Source: Aurantiacibacter odishensis
GTDB lineage: Bacteria; Pseudomonadota; Alphaproteobacteria; Sphingomonadales; Sphingomonadaceae
NCBI RefSeq assembly: GCF_003605195.1
Contig: NZ_QYOS01000025.1
Location: 372,001 to 436,000, forward strand
Direction: 5' to 3'
DNA length: 64,000 bases
A program made the position numbers and the translations under genes. The notes beneath the pieces are model-generated. The model ran no database searches. It was not told where the DNA came from and was given only the letters and a program-made list of their open reading frames with translations. Positions 30,043 to 40,097 of this stretch are shown one piece after another. Every line of letters starts with the position of its first letter. The first letter of the stretch is position 1.

Positions 30043-31518
30043 TCAGGCGACCTTGTTGACGGGTAGGGATAGCTGCGCCTCCTTCTCCTTGCGGCCTGCA
30101 AGGTCGGTCAGCGGAGTGGGGTATTCACCGGTGAAGCACGCGTCGCAATACTGCGGGCAGGCCTTGTCGCGGCCTTCCAGGCCCACGGCGCGGTAAAGCC
30201 CGTCGATCGAGACGAAGGCGAGGCTGTCGGCCTGGATGAACTCGCGCATCGCTTCCAGGTCCATGCGCCCCGCCAGCAGCTTTGAGCGTTCGGGCGTATC
30301 CACGCCGTAGTAGCAGCCGTGACCGGTGGGCGGGCTGGCGACGCGGAAATGCACTTCCTTCGCACCTGCATCGCGCATCATCTGCACGATCTTGAGGCTG
30401 GTGGTGCCGCGCACGATGGAATCGTCGATGAGGACGATGCGCTTGCCTTCCACGATCTTGCGGTTGGCGTTGTGCTTGCGCTTCACACCCGCGTGGCGCG
30501 CGCCGTCGCTGGGCTGGATGAAGGTGCGCCCGACATAGTGCGAGCGGATGATGCCCAGCTCGAACGGAATGCCGCTTTCCTGCGCATAGCCGATGGCGGC
30601 GGGTGTGCCGCTGTCGGGCACCGGCACGACCAGGTCGGCATCGCATGGCATTTCGCGCGCCAGTTCCATGCCGATGTTCTTGCGGCTCTCGTAAACGCTG
30701 CGCTTGTTGAAGATCGAATCAGGACGGCTGAAATAGACGTGTTCGAAAATGCACGGTCGCGCCGGCGTATTGCCGAAGGGGCGGTGCGAGCGGATGGAGC
30801 CGTCGAAATCCACCTCGATGAATTCGCCGGGCTCCACCTGCCGGGTAAATTCCGCGCCGACCACGTCGAGCGCCACGGTTTCGCTGGCGAACACCACTGC
30901 ATCGCCCAGCTTGCCCATCACCAGCGGGCGAATGCCCATCGGATCGCGGCAAGCGGCCATGCCGCGGGGTGTCATCACCACCAGCGCATAGGCGCCTTCG
31001 ACCAGGCGCAGCGCGTCGGTCAGCTTGTCGAGCATGGTGGGATAGCGGCTGGTCGCGACGAGGTGGATGATCACCTCCGTATCGCTCGTCGACTGGAAGA
31101 TCGCGCCCTTGCTGACCAGTTCCTGCTTCAGCTGCATCGCGTTGGAGATGTTGCCGTTGTGCGCGACGGCAAAGCCGCCGCTGGCAAGATCGGCATAAAG
31201 CGGCTGCACGTTGCGCATGCCGGAGCCGCCGGTGGTGGAATAGCGAACATGGCCGCCCGCCATCTGGCCGGGCAGTTCGGCAATCGATTCGGCGCTGGAG
31301 AAGTTGTCCGCCACGTGGCCTAGGCCACGACGGGTGAAGAACTCCGTCCCGTCGAAACTGGTGATGCCCACGGCTTCCTGCCCCCGGTGTTGCAGGGCGT
31401 GCAGACCCAGCGCACAGGCCGCAGCCGCGTCGGGCGCGCCAATGATGCCGAACACGCCGCACTCTTCGTGCAACTTGTCGTCACCGTCTCCGTCCAAAAA
31501 GGGATGGGTGAAATTCAT
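30043..31518 (-). CDS. purF: Amidophosphoribosyltransferase
   Basis: Catalyses the first committed step of purine synthesis, PRPP plus glutamine to phosphoribosylamine. The ATG at 31518 (MNFTHPFLDGDGDDKLHEE) places the N-terminal nucleophile Cys20 after a removable 19-residue propeptide (HEECGVFGI). Class II glutamine amidotransferase segments (LHALQHRGQEAVGI, VAHNGNISN) and the PRPP site IVLIDDSIVRGTTS follow. The C-terminal region holds cysteines (CPQYCDACFTGEYPTPL) typical of cluster-containing forms. The upstream extension of the frame reads through the partial tRNA copy and is not coding. It borders the left end of the integrative element. Confidence 0.96.
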   Translation of the reverse strand: MNFTHPFLDGDGDDKLHEECGVFGIIGAPDAAAACALGLHALQHRGQEAVGITSFDGTEFFTRRGLGHVADNFSSAESIAELPGQMAGGHVRYSTTGGSGMRNVQPLYADLASGGFAVAHNGNISNAMQLKQELVSKGAIFQSTSDTEVIIHLVATSRYPTMLDKLTDALRLVEGAYALVVMTPRGMAACRDPMGIRPLVMGKLGDAVVFASETVALDVVGAEFTRQVEPGEFIEVDFDGSIRSHRPFGNTPARPCIFEHVYFSRPDSIFNKRSVYESRKNIGMELAREMPCDADLVVPVPDSGTPAAIGYAQESGIPFELGIIRSHYVGRTFIQPSDGARHAGVKRKHNANRKIVEGKRIVLIDDSIVRGTTSLKIVQMMRDAGAKEVHFRVASPPTGHGCYYGVDTPERSKLLAGRMDLEAMREFIQADSLAFVSIDGLYRAVGLEGRDKACPQYCDACFTGEYPTPLTDLAGRKEKEAQLSLPVNKVA

Positions 31519-31624
31519 CGATTTCCGTTTGTAACCAGCAGCGCTGCCCCAATGGCGATGTTGCGGTTCGATTACAAGGGGCGGCGAGGGACGATGCCCA
31601 GACTCCGCATGAGAAATTTTTGCA

Positions 31625-31680
31625 AAATGGTCGGGGAGAGAGGATTCGAACCTCCGGCCCCTGCCTCCCGAAGACAGTGC
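31625..31680. repeat. Left attachment repeat: 56-bp copy of the tRNA-Pro 3' part
   Basis: An exact 56-bp direct copy of 39857-39912. It contains the CCA end, acceptor 3' strand, T arm, variable region and anticodon arm of tRNA-Pro(CGG), but sequence diverges after GACAGTGC, so no functional tRNA is encoded here. It marks the far end of the integrative element, 8,232 bp from the intact tRNA copy. Confidence 0.93.
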
Positions 31681-31970: not shown

Positions 31971-33287
31971 TCAAGTGACTACAGGCTTCACGCCAACAGA
32001 AGCCTTGAAGGCATCCTTCAGCAGAGAGGATGCAAGTTCTACATCGCCTTCCGGCACTATAAGGCTATCGTGAACCGGAAGGGAGGCGATACCATGGCTG
32101 AAGGCCAATTCCTCCATTGTTGCGAGCACGATCTCACTTTCAATGAATTGCAGTTGACCCCAACTCACAGTCAGAGCCTCCGCTTTCGGTCCTAGTATTG
32201 GCAACTTTGCGAGGATAGCGTCTCCGGTGGGGATGAGCGGAAAGTCTTTGGTCAGGTCCCAGCCGTGCTTTTCCATCATCTCCCGTTTCGCGAGTGGAGG
32301 CCAACGCTTGTGGCGCTTGTCGTGGCTCATGGTCATCGTGACCCATTGCTTTACAACTTCACGAGGCAAGCCCTCAACCTGATACGGGTCTCCTTCCAGC
32401 GCAGTGATAGGGACGTGACCGAGGCCAACCAATAGAGTGAGGTGGCTGGCACGAAGGTCGATTTCCTTTGTGGCTTTCCCATTAATGAGGATGGACGCCC
32501 GGTCCTTCCGCTTGGCCGTCTGGAAGTTGTCATGTCCGAGGGCATAGAGACGGCCCCCCAAATCCCAGTCGAATCCCGGCTGGTCTCCATTTGAGAATAT
32601 CCTGCGCAAGAATATTGGGCCGAAGGGTTCGACTGTCTGCGCGGCCAGAAAGGCGTTCAAGCGGTCCATGCGCTCAATGATCGCAACGGCCTTGGGGTCT
32701 TTGCGGTCGAAGGGCATATTCCGAACAGTCTTCCAAGAGCGTTGCCCAGCACGATTGGCGTAACGCAGTTCGACTGACGCTTGACGAGGGGAAGCTGCAA
32801 CCAGTTCCCTCCGGAAGTGTTCGCTCCAATTGTCGCGCGACACGCCTTCAGCAGCGAACCAGTCACGCAGCCAGTCGGTTGCACGGAACCGAGCGGCGCG
32901 GTCCCAAGTCCTCTCGCGGCTTCCTCCTGTAAGGTCGTTCTGTGTGTATTGACGGGTGCCGCCCACGAAGTCGATCATTAGTCCCATCATTGGGCGTAAG
33001 ACGGCCATGAAAGGGCGATAGCCGATTGCCTCGCCGGAAAAGCGGTTCGCGCTCAACGAGCGGTAAAGCCAGCCGCCATTGTCCTGTGGGTCCCTCTCCA
33101 GCAGGTCCGCTATCAGGGCGTTGAATGCCGTTTGCTGTTTCGCCATGGGCCTGCGTTGGGCTTGATGAAGGAGCTTGCGCAGTAGCAGGCTACACAACTC
33201 AACTGCCTTCGCTGATTGCGGTCGTGCTGTGAGCGCGGCGTATTGTGCGGCCCTCATTTCGGTGGCGGTATAAATTGGTGCAGTCAT
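31971..33287 (-). CDS. Uncharacterised protein with family A polymerase palm-like motifs
   Basis: A 438-residue protein; no confident family name. The C-terminal half carries three ordered motifs that resemble the palm of family A DNA polymerases and T7-type RNA polymerases. Motif A-like: EIDLRASHLTLL (Asp277). Motif B-like: Arg309-x3-Lys313 in LPREVVKQWV. Motif C-like: LPVHDSLIVP (His406-Asp407). Before motif A is RRIFSNGD, then GGRLYALG, then RASILINGK, an arrangement I also associate with unnamed proteins of other mobile elements. The N-terminal 200 residues are helical and basic, without recognisable exonuclease or zinc motifs. A role in replicating or priming the element is inference only. 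It is the last gene of the element. Confidence 0.6.
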   Translation of the reverse strand: MTAPIYTATEMRAAQYAALTARPQSAKAVELCSLLLRKLLHQAQRRPMAKQQTAFNALIADLLERDPQDNGGWLYRSLSANRFSGEAIGYRPFMAVLRPMMGLMIDFVGGTRQYTQNDLTGGSRERTWDRAARFRATDWLRDWFAAEGVSRDNWSEHFRRELVAASPRQASVELRYANRAGQRSWKTVRNMPFDRKDPKAVAIIERMDRLNAFLAAQTVEPFGPIFLRRIFSNGDQPGFDWDLGGRLYALGHDNFQTAKRKDRASILINGKATKEIDLRASHLTLLVGLGHVPITALEGDPYQVEGLPREVVKQWVTMTMSHDKRHKRWPPLAKREMMEKHGWDLTKDFPLIPTGDAILAKLPILGPKAEALTVSWGQLQFIESEIVLATMEELAFSHGIASLPVHDSLIVPEGDVELASSLLKDAFKASVGVKPVVT

Positions 33288-33410
33288 TTCCGGTCTTACG
33301 CGTTTCCGTAGCGAGGCGAACGCAATCAGGAATTAGAGCGGACAGACCATTTCCTTCGCGCTCCGCTAGGCGAGCTAGAAGGACGCGGTGCAGCCGCAAG
33401 TGTAGGAATT

Positions 33411-33457
33411 GGGTCCCTTTTTCATGGGTCCCCTTTTCGGAAATATTGGGTTCCCCC
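33411..33457. repeat. GGGTCCC repeats upstream of the polymerase-like gene
   Basis: Three short related copies occur in this gene-free 200-bp stretch: GGGTCCC at 33411, GGGTCCCC at 33426 and GGGTTCCCC at 33448. GGGNCCC is self-complementary. They could be operators or small iterons controlling the minus-strand gene that starts at 33287. Chance cannot be excluded for so short a motif. Confidence 0.35.
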
Positions 33458-33490: not shown

Positions 33491-33799
33491 CTAAAGGTCA
33501 GAGGTCGTTGTTGTTGTCCGTTCTTCGTCGCTTGTCTTGCTCCCGAGCGGCTCCAAGGCTTCACGGAGAGGGCCGTCAAGCAAGAGGTATGTCACAACGG
33601 TATCAGTCCGAACATTTAGGCGTTCCCCAGCTCCAAGCGCCACTGCAACTTCGAGGGGCGTCATAGACTCGGAACCGGAGCTAATTAATTGCTGGGAAAT
33701 TCTCTCACAAAGGCCGGGGGTGAAGGCTAATCTTTGTAGCAGAGTTCGGTCGCCATCGTTGTCCGGCTGGGTCAAAAGGACTTCGTTTCGCTTATTCAA
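33491..33799 (-). CDS. Small hypothetical protein, third gene of the Mod-Res unit
   Basis: A 102-residue frame that starts with TTG 14 bp after the res stop, on the same strand. It is acidic to neutral, with no transmembrane helix and no recognised motif. TPLEVAVALGAGERLNVRTDTVVTYLLLDGPLREAL reads like a compact helical domain. The start could instead be the ATG 45 codons further in. Position suggests cotranscription with mod and res. Coding status is moderately likely only. Confidence 0.5.
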   Translation of the reverse strand: MNKRNEVLLTQPDNDGDRTLLQRLAFTPGLCERISQQLISSGSESMTPLEVAVALGAGERLNVRTDTVVTYLLLDGPLREALEPLGSKTSDEERTTTTTSDL

Positions 33800-33813: not shown

Positions 33814-36459
33814 TCACTTCCCCTCAATCTTCTCCAGAAACTGGTCACGTGGCTGTCTGCCTTCGACCGTTTTCTCAACCATCAGGAACAGACACTTTCC
33901 ATTGCTGGTCTGCTCCCAACGCTGGCCGATTGCTGCCTTGGCTTTAGTCTCGTCGCTGCTGACGAGGTGCGCCCCCTTGTATTCCGCAACCAACAAGCGC
34001 CCGTCAGTTAGCTCTGCTACGAAATCGGGATAGAAATTGTCCTTCGCCAGCCCCAGCCGAAAAGCGTCTGGATGCTGTGATACGTTGCGGACCCAATGCT
34101 TCAGATGCTCGGGCGGTAAGCTGTCCAGCGCCCTTGCGCAAAGTTCCTCATCGCCACCCGGCTTGCCATCAAAGGCTGGCACGTTGTCCGGTCCCGTGAA
34201 GTGCTTGCTAAAGCGATAATCGCCTTGATACTTTCGGGCAGAAGCGAAGATACCGTCCTTGAACACGAAGCCGTGATCGAAGCTGATTTCCGGCTGGGCT
34301 TCTGGCCCAAACAGGCAAGCCTGATAAACGTTCTCGCGAACCTTCGTGCGGATGGCAGCAATGCGGTCTTGTAGCTTACGGGCGAGGATATACTTGCATT
34401 GCATCAAGCCGGTCAGAGGAAGGCCGCGAGCGCCTGTTAGGTGCGAAACAGTTCGCGTGAGCCATTCGATAAGTTGCGCAGGGCTAAGGTCCGGCTGGCG
34501 CACCTGTTTGGCAAGAAACAGGACCAACCCCTGCTCGGTCCAACCTTCGACTTCGACATCAAAGGAAAGTTGCCTGCTGGCATCACGGCTGACTACAGAC
34601 AGGCTACGCCCATCCAAGTCGATCTCAAAGGTGTTGGCCGTTTGCCGAAGGTCGAATTCATCGGCGTCTAGCTTTGCCGAATGGTCTAGTAGCGACCAAT
34701 CGTTGTGCTCCATCAGCAGGTCGGTTTCTGCCAGCTCCAGCTCGCCCTGAATTCTCGTCATGAGGGCAGGGACCACGAACTGCGCTCCCTTCTCGGCAGG
34801 CGAAACGCGCTCGGCATTCTCGGTCTCGTAGGTGGCAATTGACTTGCGCACCGCGTCCACGTTGGCGGCTGGCAGAGCGGCCTCAAGTTCCTGTCGCTGC
34901 TGTGGCGTGAGGAAGCCAGTTACTTTAATCGACGTGCCTCCGTCAGACGCGACAACTTCAATCTTGTCGGGCGCAACCTTGCGGATGGCGCTGGCCGTGT
35001 CATCGTCCAGTTCGACGCTGACATTTACCGAAGGCTTGGGGCGGGTCTGCTGTCCCCATAGGCCGGTATCCAGCGTTTGCTGCTGCGGCTGGATATTCTC
35101 CACGGCCTCGTCATCGCGGAACCCCATGTTCACCAGCCGGTCCTTCAGCGCCATCGCCGCAGCGGAAAAGGTTGGCGAAGCAAGGTGCGCATAGGCGTTG
35201 TTCAACTGCGGAGCCTTGCGGCGCTCGGCGTAGGGCATACGCAGAACGCGGCCCAAGAGCTGCTCGGCATCGGTTGCGCTGGCGATGTTGGCGAGCGAGC
35301 AAAAGACATAGGCGAAAGAGCAATCCCAGCCCTCTTTTAGAGCTTGGACCGTGATAACGAAGTCGACTGGACAGTCGGGCCGGAATAGGTCGATATTGTC
35401 CAGTTCCCGTTGATCACCTGTCGCCACGGCAATCCGATTTTCCACAATGCCTTGCTCAATCAGGTAGGCTTTCAGAGTGTCGACGTTGGCTTCCTGATCA
35501 CGGTTTTGCGCTTGGAACAAGACAATCGGGCGAATGTAGTCTTTGTCCAGCTCGGCAATGTCTTCGAGTTCGGCCCGCTTGGCGATTGCTCCGTCTACCG
35601 CCTGTTGCCAGCTTGGATGCTCGGCCAGCATGACGGGCAACTTGATCATCTGCTCGTCCTTCAACTCCTGTGCAGAGACAGAATAGAGCAGGTTCGATTT
35701 TTTATGCGGGGTAGCGGAGAATTCGATGATGGCGCTGGGATTCACGCGGCGCTGCATTTCTTGCGACAAGTCGGTGACGGCCTTGTGCGCCTCGTCCACG
35801 ATCATAAGCGGGCGATGCAGGTGTAGCAGGTTGGCAAATGAGAACTTTATGGTTCCAGCGTTGTATCCTTCTGAAATGGTTTCCAGTCCGGTCTGGTTCT
35901 TCGGCACTGCCGAGAAGTGCGGCTCCAGGTTCTCATTGTGGGCGTAGACCTTGCGACCTTCGGTGTCGGCAATGCGCAATGCCTGAATAGTGCTGACCAC
36001 AATGCAGCAATTCGCGGCAAGGTCTTGCGGAGTGATCTGGGTAAAATCACCAATGTCAAACACTCGAACACGACCGCCGAAGGCTTCATCCAATGCGGCA
36101 CGATAAGGGTGGCGAGGGTTCTTCAATGCCTCCACTGTCTGGGCGCGAATGACTTTGCCGGGAACAAGCCAAAGGGCTAAAGGAAACTCATCCTCAAGCC
36201 AGTTGTCTCGTGCAATCGTGACAGCATGTGCAGCAAGAATGGTTTTCCCTCCCCCAGTGGGGAGGCGCAAACACACGTAGGGCGTGTCTTGAAGTTCCTT
36301 CAAGGGAACGTAGGGTTCAATCAGGCCCTTCAGTCGTTCCGCAAGCTCTGGCTCCCTCGTTAGTTCCGTGTAGGCATCGATAGGGCCTGCAAGCCGAGCT
36401 TCAGAGAGATAGCGGGCGAGGGTAGCGAGTGTCGCCGTCTGATATTTCTTCAGTTCCAT
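33814..36459 (-). CDS. Type III-like restriction enzyme, Res helicase-nuclease subunit
   Basis: An 881-residue SF2 translocase with a nuclease domain. Walker A LPTGGGKT (residues 66-73), the DEAH box in IVDEAHKA (222-225), FSATPHKKSN (motif III), GWDCSFAYVFCSL, and motif VI in EQLLGRVLRMPYA are all visible. Near the C-terminus a PD-(D/E)xK site is formed by Asp812 in YPDFVAEL and the Glu826-x-Lys828 of LLVAEYKG. It requires the Mod subunit for site recognition in known systems. Its ATG overlaps the mod stop by one base (TAATG), so the pair is coupled. All motifs are intact. Confidence 0.9.
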   Translation of the reverse strand: MELKKYQTATLATLARYLSEARLAGPIDAYTELTREPELAERLKGLIEPYVPLKELQDTPYVCLRLPTGGGKTILAAHAVTIARDNWLEDEFPLALWLVPGKVIRAQTVEALKNPRHPYRAALDEAFGGRVRVFDIGDFTQITPQDLAANCCIVVSTIQALRIADTEGRKVYAHNENLEPHFSAVPKNQTGLETISEGYNAGTIKFSFANLLHLHRPLMIVDEAHKAVTDLSQEMQRRVNPSAIIEFSATPHKKSNLLYSVSAQELKDEQMIKLPVMLAEHPSWQQAVDGAIAKRAELEDIAELDKDYIRPIVLFQAQNRDQEANVDTLKAYLIEQGIVENRIAVATGDQRELDNIDLFRPDCPVDFVITVQALKEGWDCSFAYVFCSLANIASATDAEQLLGRVLRMPYAERRKAPQLNNAYAHLASPTFSAAAMALKDRLVNMGFRDDEAVENIQPQQQTLDTGLWGQQTRPKPSVNVSVELDDDTASAIRKVAPDKIEVVASDGGTSIKVTGFLTPQQRQELEAALPAANVDAVRKSIATYETENAERVSPAEKGAQFVVPALMTRIQGELELAETDLLMEHNDWSLLDHSAKLDADEFDLRQTANTFEIDLDGRSLSVVSRDASRQLSFDVEVEGWTEQGLVLFLAKQVRQPDLSPAQLIEWLTRTVSHLTGARGLPLTGLMQCKYILARKLQDRIAAIRTKVRENVYQACLFGPEAQPEISFDHGFVFKDGIFASARKYQGDYRFSKHFTGPDNVPAFDGKPGGDEELCARALDSLPPEHLKHWVRNVSQHPDAFRLGLAKDNFYPDFVAELTDGRLLVAEYKGAHLVSSDETKAKAAIGQRWEQTSNGKCLFLMVEKTVEGRQPRDQFLEKIEGK

Positions 36460-38171
36460 TACACCCTCGCTTTCACGTCATAAGGCGTTTGTTTGAAGGT
36501 GATTCGCTCGCGTTTCAGTGTGGCTTCCGACAGAACACAACGCTCTCCATAGACTAGCAGTTCTCCAGCAAAATCCTCGGGCAAGTCTTGTCGAATAACC
36601 TTCAAAGTGGCTCGCGTCAGGACATTGCCGCCGTCGACCGATCGGTCACGAAGAACTCCGTTGTAGAGCAATGCGAGAGCAGTATCAGCTTGGACACCTA
36701 GAACGGTGCCTCTCCGTTCTTCTCGGTTCCAAGGGTTCGCTCTTTCCGAGAACCAGACGTGTGCGGCAAGCGTCTCGAATTCGATATCCTCACGGATTTG
36801 GCCTTGGTCATCGAAAACGCTGGGGCCGAGCCTAAAGAAGCGAAAGCCACCACCGCCCTTCCAGCCTATTGTTTTGGAGATACCTCCCATTTCTCCTTCA
36901 ATCACACGTTTAAGACGTGGTTGCGCATGAGTAACGGCGTTATCCCGCAGTTCGACACCGATGTATCTGCGGCCCATTTTGTGCGCCACAGCGGCGGTCG
37001 TTCCGGAGCCGAGAAAGCTATCAAGAACAAGGTCGCCCTCGTTGGTGGCAAGTTGCAATATTCGTTGGACTAACGCCTCGGGTTTCTTCCCATTTGGAAA
37101 CCTGACACCACCCTCTTTTGTGAGGTTGTTCAGAGGGAACCCTTCCCAAAAGGAACCGACCTTCTCTCGTTTGACTGCCTTTCCGGCTTCCAATCTCGCA
37201 ATATCGGACAACCAGATCACACGGCGAACGGACTTCGCAATGTAGTAGTGCGTGACTTCTTTACCCTTATCTTTTCCTGACCTCGGGACATAAGTTGCTT
37301 CAAGTATCTCACCGTTGGCAAGCGCCCTAAACTCGTCCTTAATACGTGTTCGTATGCTCGTTTGTGCGTTGGTATCCGAAAAGATCGAAGGCAAATATTC
37401 GTCGTATATCCGGCTAATTTCAGTTCCATCTTTGGATAGCTGATTGACGGTGGTGCGCTCAATTCCAACGCGGCGGACAACTCTAATTTTCTCCCCATCC
37501 CCTGTTAGGACAGTTCTTTCCTCGACTGGTTCACCCTTCGAGACCAAAACGCTTGTGTATTTCCAGCTCTTGCCTGCGCTCTCCATTGCCTCGATTTCAT
37601 CCATCAATGGGACGCTTTCGTAGACATCATTGAACCGTTCAAAGCCGCCCAAGCCAAAGGCATTCTTTGCATAGACAAGAATGTGCTCAATATTCTTCCG
37701 AAGTTTTTTCTCCTCTCCACCGCCGCTTGCACCAGCGATGAGCTTCATCCTTGCCGAAACATCATTGAGAAAGTTTCCACGCCCGAAAACCTCGTCGCAC
37801 AGAACTTTGAGGTAGTGCGCTTCATTGTCGTCGATCGAAATGAAAATGCTTCCATCCTCTGCCAACAACTCCCGCAGCAGGACAAGGCGCGGGTAAATCA
37901 TCGCCAGCCATTTCGAGTGCTCTAGGTTGTCGTCATAGTGCTCGAAAGCGGACTTGGTGTTATAGGGTGGGTCGATGTAGATGCACTTCACTTGGCCCGC
38001 GTAGAAGGGAAGGAGCGCTTTCAGGGCCTCCAGATTGTCGCCCTGAATGAGCATATTACTGGTGTCAGTGTTCCCTGCACCTAACTCCGGCACTTGCTCC
38101 AACAACCTATAGGGAACCGCGTCAGCCTCTCTTACGTCCTCGCCGCGGGTCAACCAGTTGAGAACGGGCAT
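36459..38171 (-). CDS. Type III-like DNA adenine methyltransferase, Mod subunit
   Basis: A 570-residue N6-adenine methyltransferase of the beta class: catalytic DPPYNT (67-72) comes before the SAM motif DSFLGSGTT (384-392). The target-recognition region lies between them (about 125-330). The conserved tail after GRRYIGVELRD extends another 165 residues, as in Mod proteins that bind Res. It sets site specificity for both modification and cutting. The recognition sequence cannot be predicted. Codon use is richer in A/T than in flanking core genes, which fits recent acquisition. Confidence 0.92.
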   Translation of the reverse strand: MPVLNWLTRGEDVREADAVPYRLLEQVPELGAGNTDTSNMLIQGDNLEALKALLPFYAGQVKCIYIDPPYNTKSAFEHYDDNLEHSKWLAMIYPRLVLLRELLAEDGSIFISIDDNEAHYLKVLCDEVFGRGNFLNDVSARMKLIAGASGGGEEKKLRKNIEHILVYAKNAFGLGGFERFNDVYESVPLMDEIEAMESAGKSWKYTSVLVSKGEPVEERTVLTGDGEKIRVVRRVGIERTTVNQLSKDGTEISRIYDEYLPSIFSDTNAQTSIRTRIKDEFRALANGEILEATYVPRSGKDKGKEVTHYYIAKSVRRVIWLSDIARLEAGKAVKREKVGSFWEGFPLNNLTKEGGVRFPNGKKPEALVQRILQLATNEGDLVLDSFLGSGTTAAVAHKMGRRYIGVELRDNAVTHAQPRLKRVIEGEMGGISKTIGWKGGGGFRFFRLGPSVFDDQGQIREDIEFETLAAHVWFSERANPWNREERRGTVLGVQADTALALLYNGVLRDRSVDGGNVLTRATLKVIRQDLPEDFAGELLVYGERCVLSEATLKRERITFKQTPYDVKARV

Positions 38172-38266: not shown

Positions 38267-38677
38267 TCAGAAGGCGCTAGGGCGTTCGCAATGGCCAAAA
38301 GCGTAGGTGATACGGCCCGCCGACTGGGCCGAAGCAATCCGTGCATAAGTGAAGAAGCCGGTTTGCAGGTCGAGGACTATTTCCTCGCCATCGCGCAGGA
38401 CACGAAGCTGGTCGCCCAAGCCGCGCACAAACTCTGCCTGCCAAGCTGCACCGCAGCTCTCGCGGCATTCGGTAAGCATGGCCGCTTGCGACCCAAGCTC
38501 GTCGGGAATGACCCCGACCAGCCGGTATTCGGCAGGCGGAAGGAAGTTTGCTTCGCAACCGCCGCCACTTTCGCACCAGCCGCCGCTTGCTTCGCGGCAG
38601 ATGAACTCGGCGGATTGCTGGGCGTGCGTTGAGACTGGCACCAAAAGCAACGGAAGGACCCAGAACGGCGTTCTCAT
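38267..38677 (-). CDS. Secreted cysteine-rich hypothetical protein on the element
   Basis: A 136-residue protein whose ATG overlaps the integrase stop by four bases (ATGA). It has a clear signal peptide, MRTPFWVLPLLLVPVSTHAQ. The mature part has six cysteines (CREASGGWC, GGGC, TECRESC, GHC), all suited to disulfides. No family was recognised. A secreted protein translationally coupled to an integrase is unusual. It lies about 95 bp ahead of the mod gene, which could hold the promoter for the Mod-Res unit. Confidence 0.7.
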   Translation of the reverse strand: MRTPFWVLPLLLVPVSTHAQQSAEFICREASGGWCESGGGCEANFLPPAEYRLVGVIPDELGSQAAMLTECRESCGAAWQAEFVRGLGDQLRVLRDGEEIVLDLQTGFFTYARIASAQSAGRITYAFGHCERPSAF

Positions 38678-39747
38678 AGCTGAAAATCCCCTGTCTGACT
38701 GGCTTGTGGTGCTGGCGCGGATTTCCTTTCCTCCCAACGCAGTCCGGACAGTTTGCGAGCGAGATCGTCCGCCCGCAAGTGTGTATAACGAAAGAGCATT
38801 CTCGGGTCCTTATGACCCGAAATGACCGACAACTCGGGAACTGACAGCCCAAGCTCGCAGAAGCGCGACAACGCCTCGTGGCGCAGATCGTGGAACCGCA
38901 GGTCCGCAAGGCCCGACCGCTTCTGCACCCGCTTCCAAGCCTGCTTGAAGGCGTTAAGTGTGATGGGAAATAGCCTCTCATCCACCGGCTGGCCCCCTGT
39001 GTCGCGTTCGCAGGGGAGGGCAGCGATGATGGCGACGGCCTGCTCTGTCAGCGGGATTGTGCGCGGTTGGCCAGTCTTGGTTGTCGGGATGAAGGCAATG
39101 CGGCGAACCTGATCGATATTAACCCATGTCAGCTCCAGAACTTCTCGCCTCCGCAGGCCTGTCTGGATTGCGAGTTCAACAATGGGGCCAATGAAAGGAT
39201 TGCGCCTGGACGCGATAGCATCGCGCAGGATTGCCGCCTCACCTTCTTCCAAGCGTCTGTCACGCGCATCGTTGGCGATAGGGAAGGACACCTGCCGCAC
39301 AGGGTTTGTCGAGAAAGGATAGCCCCATTCCTTCGTCGCCTTGTCGATCATGTTGGCAAACAGATACAGTTCGCGCCGCACAGTGCCCGGTTTCACCAGC
39401 TTCAGTCTGCGGTCCCGATAGGCAGCGAAATCGCCCGCAGATAGGTCGATCAGGACATTGGCTGCAATCGGGTCCTTCGCCATCCGGCAGAGCCTTAGGC
39501 GCTCCGTTTCAGAGCTGCGCTTATGTGGCGTGACGGTCTGGCGATATTGTTCGATGAGGTCCGCCAACCTTTTCGTCTTCAGCGGCGCAACCGTGGCGGG
39601 AAGGGTCCCCTTGTCCATTTGCGCTTCCTGCTCGCGCCCCCATTTGAGCGCGGCAGATTTTGTGGGGAAAGTCGCATTGCGGGCAGCATAGCCCTTGCGG
39701 CGGACTTGGACGCACCAGCCGCCTTTTCGCTTGGTAATTGACGCCAT
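38674..39747 (-). CDS. int: Tyrosine recombinase (integrase)
   Basis: A 357-residue site-specific recombinase. The N-terminal arm-binding-like domain begins ASITKRKGGWCVQVRRKGY, then comes the core-binding domain (about 60-150). The catalytic residues are Arg199 (TGLRRREVLEL), Lys224 (TTKTG), His286-x2-Arg289 (FHDLRHEA), His312 (SGHKD) and the nucleophile Tyr321 (LFRYTHL). All are present, so the enzyme should be active. It starts next to the tRNA-Pro target. The tandem GTGTGATC boxes at both ends of the element are likely binding sites. No excisionase gene was recognised. Confidence 0.93.
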   Translation of the reverse strand: MASITKRKGGWCVQVRRKGYAARNATFPTKSAALKWGREQEAQMDKGTLPATVAPLKTKRLADLIEQYRQTVTPHKRSSETERLRLCRMAKDPIAANVLIDLSAGDFAAYRDRRLKLVKPGTVRRELYLFANMIDKATKEWGYPFSTNPVRQVSFPIANDARDRRLEEGEAAILRDAIASRRNPFIGPIVELAIQTGLRRREVLELTWVNIDQVRRIAFIPTTKTGQPRTIPLTEQAVAIIAALPCERDTGGQPVDERLFPITLNAFKQAWKRVQKRSGLADLRFHDLRHEALSRFCELGLSVPELSVISGHKDPRMLFRYTHLRADDLARKLSGLRWEERKSAPAPQASQTGDFQL

Positions 39748-39856: not shown

Positions 39857-39912
39857 AAATGGTCGGGGAGAGAGGATTCGAACCTCCGGCCCCTGCCTCC
39901 CGAAGACAGTGC
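39857..39912. repeat. Right attachment repeat inside tRNA-Pro
   Basis: This is the second copy of the 56-bp direct repeat (first at 31625-31680). It runs from four bases beyond the CCA end through the anticodon stem. The crossover must fall inside this repeat; integration by the element restores the tRNA. Confidence 0.93.
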
Positions 39913-39936
39913 TCTACCAGGCTGAGCTACTCCCCG
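39860..39936 (-). tRNA. tRNA-Pro(CGG)
   Basis: A 77-nt tRNA with encoded CCA. Acceptor CGGGGAG pairs with CTCCCCG; D arm GCTCAGCCTGGTAGAGC; anticodon loop TTCGGGA gives anticodon CGG, reading CCG; T arm GGAGGTTCGAATCCTC. Its 3' part is the integration target of the element and is restored by the element-borne copy. Confidence 0.95.
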
Positions 39937-39979
39937 ACCGGTGCGTTGCGGAGGAGAACCCCCGCGAGGCAGAGGCGGC

Positions 39980-40008
39980 CCTATAGGGACACAGTTTCGC
40001 GCTGGCAA
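39980..40008 (-). promoter_or_regulatory. Promoter of tRNA-Pro
   Basis: On the minus strand, TTGCCA (40008-40003) and TATAGG (39985-39980) are separated by 17 bp, a good sigma70-type pair. The -10 box is 43 bp ahead of the tRNA 5' end. Confidence 0.6.
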
Positions 40009-40097
40009 GCCTGCCGTGAGCGAAGTTGGGAAAGGATCGCGAATATCGGCCCACATGCGCTTGGCGCGGGCGGAGTCGCGGTGGTAGCGGTGCCCTC

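Follow-up and report, generated by a model that had tools for sequence, protein, structure and literature searches.

The integrative element and its genes

The window, i.e., the whole 64,000-nucleotide stretch of DNA that was analysed, contains an element of 8.2 kb framed by two exact copies of a 56-bp direct repeat that lie 8,232 bp apart. A tRNA-Pro gene and a tyrosine integrase gene are found at one end of the element and a gene for a polymerase at the opposite end, while the genes of a type III restriction-modification system (Mod and Res) lie between them. The features are listed below.

31625..31680, no strand assigned: distal attachment repeat, partial copy of tRNA-Pro (56-bp exact repeat)
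31971..33287, minus strand: gene of a divPolA2/TV-Pol-like family A-type polymerase (ORF, model, PDB matches and divPolA2 homology)
33408..33454, no strand assigned: two 14-nt direct repeats, 15 nt apart, and a third, weaker copy, located upstream of the polymerase gene
33491..33799, minus strand: small ORF of 102 aa, no known family in the family searches
33814..36459, minus strand: type III restriction enzyme, Res (PDLC03650, E 6.6e-177)
36459..38171, minus strand: type III methyltransferase, Mod (PDLC03644, E 1.2e-141)
38674..39747, minus strand: tyrosine integrase (PF00589, E 2.2e-24)
39857..39912, no strand assigned: attachment repeat at the tRNA-Pro gene (56-bp exact repeat)
39860..39936, minus strand: tRNA-Pro(cgg), the integration target

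The first-pass annotation of this DNA had placed the polymerase on a mobile element, and this was confirmed by the 56-bp repeat, the integrase at tRNA-Pro, the lowered G + C content (55.9% in the element vs 63.8% and 63.4% in 20 kb on either side) and, in one of the seven congener loci compared (L116-L122), an unoccupied site. In that locus (L120, genome G585) the sequence passes from the left flank (window 31437-31680) straight into the tRNA side (39858-40021), without the element; from the tRNA to the following gene the distance is about 1 kb greater than in the window. In L116 about 0.9 kb separates the two flanks, and in the other five loci the left flank past the repeat was unaligned inside the locus compared.

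The family searches revealed no replication helicase, SSB or other replication family among the six ORFs of the element, and the Pfam search no phage gene. The 14-nt repeats upstream of the polymerase gene are a weak candidate for a binding site and may also have arisen by chance; in the five relatives for which upstream repeats are listed, the sequence differs or the repeats are absent. A related element lies beside tRNA-Pro(cgg), as in the window, in locus L156 (G258), where the polymerase gene consists of two parts separated by about 2.3 kb.

Motifs, fold and kinship of the polymerase

The ORF (31971-33287) runs on the minus strand from ATG to TGA and encodes 438 aa. The following parts were distinguished.

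32703..33287, minus strand: N-terminal domain, residues 1 to about 195 (model of residues 1-198)
32544..32558, minus strand: GGRLY hairpin, residues 244-248, with invariant Arg246 (88/88)
32430..32465, minus strand: motif A EIDLRASHLTLL, residues 275-286, with Asp277 (88/88) and His282 (73/88)
32325..32363, minus strand: fingers helix, residues 309-321, with Arg309 (85/89), Lys313 (89/89) and Ser321
32052..32081, minus strand: motif C LPVHDSLIVP, residues 403-412, with His406 (87/88) and Asp407 (88/88)

The residue counts, here and below, refer to an alignment of 112 ORFs reduced to 90 rows less than 80% identical, the window protein among them, and leave out the rows gapped at the given column. 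On the same alignment Asp300 is present in 82/88 rows and the serine of motif C (HDS) in 79/88. The second motif, LPREVVKQWV, begins at residue 307 and contributes Arg309 and Lys313, while EIDLRASHLTLL begins at 275 and LPVHDSLIVP at 403. In the alignment A3, which gathers 56 sequences 16-49% identical to the query, Gly245, Arg246, Asp277, Lys313, Leu403, Pro404, His406 and Asp407 are invariant and Arg309 is kept in at least 90%. As the motif residues are kept across A3, the occurrence of the three motifs is not due to chance.

The AlphaFold2 model of the protein, built from 56 sequences, is confident, with a mean pLDDT of 89.2 and a pTM of 0.75. In the predicted secondary structure Asp277 ends the strand 271-278, Arg309 and Lys313 open the helix 309-322, and His406-Asp407 lie in the turn joining the strands 403-405 and 408-412; in the model, this placement is that of a family A palm and fingers. 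Of the PDB matches found by Foldseek, 728 in all at E<=10 and 19 of them at E<=0.001, the best 50 were all family A DNA polymerases (top E 1.6e-4, probability 1.00); the query-normalised TM-scores of the matches listed are low (0.22-0.33), and the rmsd lies between 6 and 18 Å. When viral models were searched, the 11 top matches extended over 445-488 alignment columns with TM-scores of 0.47-0.59 and E values of 5e-19 to 3e-14. One of them, from Rheinheimera phage Barba31A, bears the name DNA polymerase, and the replication protein of a virophage (Zamilon) matched at 3.4e-4.

These results uphold most of what had been read from the DNA at first: motifs A, B and C in palm order, with residues nearly invariant over 88-89 rows, a palm of the family A kind (Pol I/T7 RNA polymerase), seen in the predicted structure and the PDB fold search, a reduced size of 438 residues, and the absence of an exonuclease, no exonuclease family having been found in the Pfam, NCBIfam, PHROG and PADLOC searches. 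An AEP primase, which had been named as an alternative, was dropped because none occurred among the best 50 of the 728 PDB matches.

The N-terminal 198 residues modelled alone (pLDDT 87.1) form helices followed by a two-stranded hairpin and a helix. No PDB structure matched this domain at E<=0.001 in Foldseek (best 0.14). PerR-like winged helices appeared only at E 0.8-1.6 with a probability of at most 0.15; the modelled domain is possibly winged-helix-like.

Searches with the sequence of the window protein gave sub-threshold matches only in Pfam and NCBIfam and none in PADLOC, while PHROG_4756, a family of unknown function, was matched at E 1e-20 (a second PHROG match was at chance level). 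The protein had no match over the curated cut-off to PF00476 (bacterial DNA polymerase I), which was also absent from the 17 Pfam families met by A3 members at E<=0.1, and no match to PF00940 (RNA_pol) at E<=1. Among A3 members, PF00940 was the Pfam family met most often, in 3/56 at E<=0.1, with a best E of 0.014 that is not significant. Profile A1 was built from bacterial members only, while A2 and A3 include members from phages or viral contigs. Compared profile against profile with bacterial Pol I, A3 matched in the right register (score 22.7; best of 30 column shuffles 14.8) at a weak E of 0.061; A1 gave E 0.21, with motif C matched, and A2 0.54 in a wrong register. In the PDB sequence search with A3, Taq polymerase came first at a non-significant E of 0.46, and the window protein alone retrieved nothing relevant. 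The sequence link of the family to bacterial Pol I is thus weak, and the family A reading rests on structure. The host has a polA gene of its own elsewhere in the genome (L154).

The kinship to divPolA2 is apparent at the sequence level. Its representative AUR84708 was found by A1, A2 and A3 (hmmsearch, 3e-13, 2.2e-30 and 5.2e-41, respectively) and by direct BLASTP (2e-11), and hhalign gave 97.3%. The A1 match spans the palm and fingers, and those of A2 and A3 continue through the N-terminal region (A3 26-401 on ORF residues 36-430). PHROG_4756 is matched likewise by AUR84708 and by a protein of phage Barba18A, which is placed in the same tree. The link to TV-Pol is marginal: LMM01 MAP_030, by our own assignment a TV-Pol from the text of PMC2579912, matched A3 at E 0.023 in hmmsearch and at 45.6% (E 2e-4) in hhalign, and was not picked up by A2. 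A quick tree of 92 rows, in which SH-aLRT is the sole support measure, places the window protein in a 16-row clade (support 100) made up solely of bacterial genomes and one plasmid, with L040 and L002 as its nearest neighbours (support 99); the two TV-Pol rows are long branches of unsure position.

The residues that would meet the sugar of the incoming nucleotide were compared by their spacing from the motifs. The fifth residue after Asp277 (His282) takes the place of Glu710 of E. coli Pol I, and the fourth and eighth residues after Lys313 (Thr317 and Ser321) stand where Pol I has Phe762 and Tyr766 (Tyr639 of T7 RNA polymerase), respectively. At the Glu710 place the 90-row alignment has His in 73/88 rows, and the 16-row clade has His in 12, Phe in two, and Gln and Gly in one each. 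At the Tyr766/Tyr639 place, Asn predominates in the whole alignment (69/89), while all 16 rows of the clade carry Gly (14) or Ser (2). At these two sugar-gate positions AUR84708 has Glu and Tyr, respectively, and the change is therefore not shared by the whole family. The two places covary, with H paired with N in 60/88 rows (shuffle p 0.02) and E/Q with Y/F in 3/88 (p 0.002), in a statistic that ignores relatedness and gives a hint at most. According to PMC7581432, Pol I rejects ribonucleotides by means of Glu710 and Phe762, and CCPol keeps both. As these residues are replaced in the window enzyme, it should choose its sugar more freely than Pol I, which makes a clear prediction on substrate.

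Distribution and neighbourhood of the relatives

The presence of the polymerase across genomes is patchy. Counting the window's own genome, relatives were found in 21/298 genomes of the family, 12/289 of the class and 16/299 of the phylum (profile A2, E<=1e-8). The six other genomes listed from the window's genus gave no match. Moreover, 12 loci with relatives were located in named bacterial contigs and 60 in IMG/VR with the A2 profile; scans of viral contigs with the window protein, A1 or a Polaromonas plasmid protein found no relatives, and A2 alone succeeded. Relatives were also present in two plasmid records, that of Sphingomonas parapaucimobilis covering 98% of the query, and in nine phage records at E 6e-4 or better. 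Phage ICP1 and its kin, which infect Vibrio cholerae, carry distant relatives that share 19.9% identity with the viral query L071 (E 3e-4 to 5e-4) and, where annotated, are called hypothetical proteins. One IMG/VR contig (L052) holds two different members of the family.

The neighbourhood was scanned in 30 distinct bacterial loci of 8-21 kb (473,777 bases; the duplicates L159, L161, L162 and L164 were uncounted). An integrase was found in 21/30, a resolvase in 18/30 and one or both in 27/30. The integrase HMM combined the window's protein with seven others taken from these 30 loci (eight in all), and the resolvase HMM three proteins, two of them taken from these loci. The loci without either are L046, L163 and L173. 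Neither HMM gave a match in a control of 30 Pol I loci, which were shorter than the test loci (about 4 kb each, 121,225 bases). Stop-to-stop frames of the polymerase abut or overlap those of the integrase on the same strand in L044, L045, L166, L167, L169 and L170, and those of the resolvase in L157 and L158. Among the 60 IMG/VR loci, four had an integrase.

The rest of the neighbourhood is less constant. Close relatives of the window's Mod occur in 2/14 loci and of its Res in 1/14, and the cargo therefore varies. When 58 ORFs, picked from 124 called in nine loci, were scanned with Pfam and PADLOC, a resolvase was found in five of them, and type I methyltransferase, TIR, GmrSD and other defence families in one or two each; no replication helicase occurred among the best 25 of 36 Pfam and 25 of 84 PADLOC families listed. 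Repeated units occur in two loci. On contig 14 of G401 (L174) a unit of about 8.9 kb is repeated in tandem (long repeats 99.2-100% identical). Besides a polymerase relative it encodes RepA_C, a ParA-like ATPase, a serine resolvase and a D12 methyltransferase; the array may be genuine or may result from the assembly of a small multicopy plasmid as a concatemer. In the IMG/VR contig L081 a short unit with a polymerase relative and an integrase-like fragment is present three times in near-identical form, at distances of 3,347 and 4,659 bp.

Comparison with known systems and possible role

Enzymes of this kind are already known from phages and mobile elements. The initial suggestion that a reduced polymerase would be new for such elements is contradicted by TV-Pol (2008), CcPol-MP/PolA-SSB (2020, 2023) and divPolA2 (2024). 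DivPolA2 was described in phages (Caudoviricetes), with AUR84708 as its representative, and is judged there most likely not the replicative enzyme (PMC11348598). The thumb of other polymerases has no homologue in divPolA2, which has a globular domain at its N-terminus instead. It shares with the window protein a homologous palm and fingers with motifs A, B and C, the lack of a 3'-5' exonuclease and an N-terminal domain without recognised relatives. In contrast, divPolA2 is encoded by phages beside a regular polymerase, whereas the window gene lies on a chromosomal integrative element with an integrase and Mod/Res; the window protein also belongs to a separate clade in the quick tree and has His and Ser where AUR84708 has Glu and Tyr.

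TV-Pol proteins in mobile-element neighbourhoods were predicted as primase-polymerases by Iyer et al. (PMC2579912). The hairpin Arg246, the palm Asp277 and Asp407, the fingers Asp300 and the RxxxK pair Arg309/Lys313 are common to both, as are the size and the location on mobile elements with an integrase or resolvase and restriction-modification neighbours; the window family differs in its marginal sequence link and in that no D5 helicase was found. The thumb of TV-Pol is a coiled coil of two helices. The CcPol-MP/PolA-SSB primases (PMC7581432, PMC10061031) are likewise mobile-element enzymes with a family A catalytic domain; priming in vitro is reported for CcPol-MP (PMC7581432), and CCPol is itself without an editing exonuclease. 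Unlike these systems, the window element has no known OB-fold partner or D5/COG3378-type helicase in the family searches, and the window protein has His282 and Thr317 at the places where CCPol keeps the Glu710 and Phe762 equivalents. Pipolins (piPolB elements; PMC7385651) are also integrative elements with their own DNA polymerase, which there belongs to family B.

Within the open PMC literature, to which the search was confined, no paper on the window's clade in integrative elements was found. A clade confined in the quick tree to bacterial genomes and a plasmid, the integrase and/or resolvase in 27/30 bacterial loci and the replaced ribonucleotide-rejecting residues appear to be new. DivPolA2 would thereby be extended from phages to integrative elements and tied to TV-Pol by shared motifs and neighbourhood, and its association with integrase and resolvase genes suggests a part in the life cycle of the element. 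According to PMC10061031, nearly all known primases belong to the AEP and DnaG families; if the window protein primes, it would be a further primase outside them.

On balance, we favour a minimal family A-type polymerase of the divPolA2/TV-Pol kind that would prime and/or copy the excised 8.2-kb element. The integrase would excise the element as a circle, on which the polymerase would synthesise primers and/or a DNA strand by two-metal catalysis through Asp277 and Asp407, with Arg309 and Lys313 binding the incoming nucleotide and the N-terminal domain perhaps standing in for the thumb or gripping the template. Host replication proteins, such as helicase and SSB, would supply the rest, because no replication family was found in the six ORFs of the element that were searched. 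The notion that the polymerase alone replicates small plasmid-like units was dropped, because the tandem unit of G401 also has RepA_C. A RepA is likewise annotated on the Polaromonas plasmid, whose polymerase is a TV-Pol by our own assignment, so that in neither unit is the polymerase the only replication protein. These RepA genes, and the judgement that divPolA2 of phages is most likely not the replicase, weigh against the favoured reading. A broader reading, which we regard as doubtful, is that a lineage of integrative bacterial elements, often associated with tRNA genes and carrying defence genes, replicates by means of a family A primase-polymerase of its own that lacks a thumb, as the PolA counterpart of the pipolins. 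Such an enzyme would start from NTPs and form a living intermediate between DNA and RNA polymerases; it might be open to ribonucleotides, because Glu710, Phe762 and Tyr766 (T7 Tyr639) are replaced by His, Thr and Ser.

Other roles were weighed against that of a polymerase of the excised element. Motif C of T7 RNA polymerase reads HDS, as does that of most rows here, and together with the replaced ribonucleotide-rejecting residues and the non-significant PF00940 matches of three A3 members this would fit a small single-subunit RNA polymerase that transcribes the genes of the element, like a reduced T7 or N4 RNA polymerase. This role was left open for divPolA2 in the 2024 paper (PMC11348598). 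However, the best 50 of the 728 PDB matches are all DNA polymerases and the fingers tyrosine of T7 RNA polymerase is Gly or Ser throughout the clade, so we consider transcription rather improbable. A polymerase that fills gaps or repairs DNA together with the integrase or resolvase at excision or integration, the element itself not being replicated, is also unlikely, if a little less so. It would suit the recombinase neighbourhood, but tyrosine and serine recombinases leave no gaps, so that no such step is obviously needed, and the host has its own Pol I. Repair is one of the roles proposed for divPolA2 in PMC11348598.

The type III restriction-modification system on the same element and the other defence genes near some relatives would agree with a defence cargo, e.g., a polymerase acting on invading phage DNA outside the life cycle of the element. 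The polymerase nevertheless tracks the integrase or resolvase (27/30), whereas relatives of the window's Mod and Res were found in no more than 2/14 and 1/14 loci; some phage genomes also carry relatives of the polymerase, and PADLOC has no model for it, which makes such a role quite improbable. Least likely, and very improbable, is that the palm is catalytically dead and the protein does no more than bind DNA, e.g., as a regulator or initiator. The TV-Pol-like protein of LMM01 appears by eye to be degraded near motif C, and RRM-only Pol proteins are held unlikely to be active by Rice 2023 (PMC10061031); in the family of the window protein, on the other hand, both metal-binding Asp residues are kept in 88/88 rows and Lys313 in 89/89.
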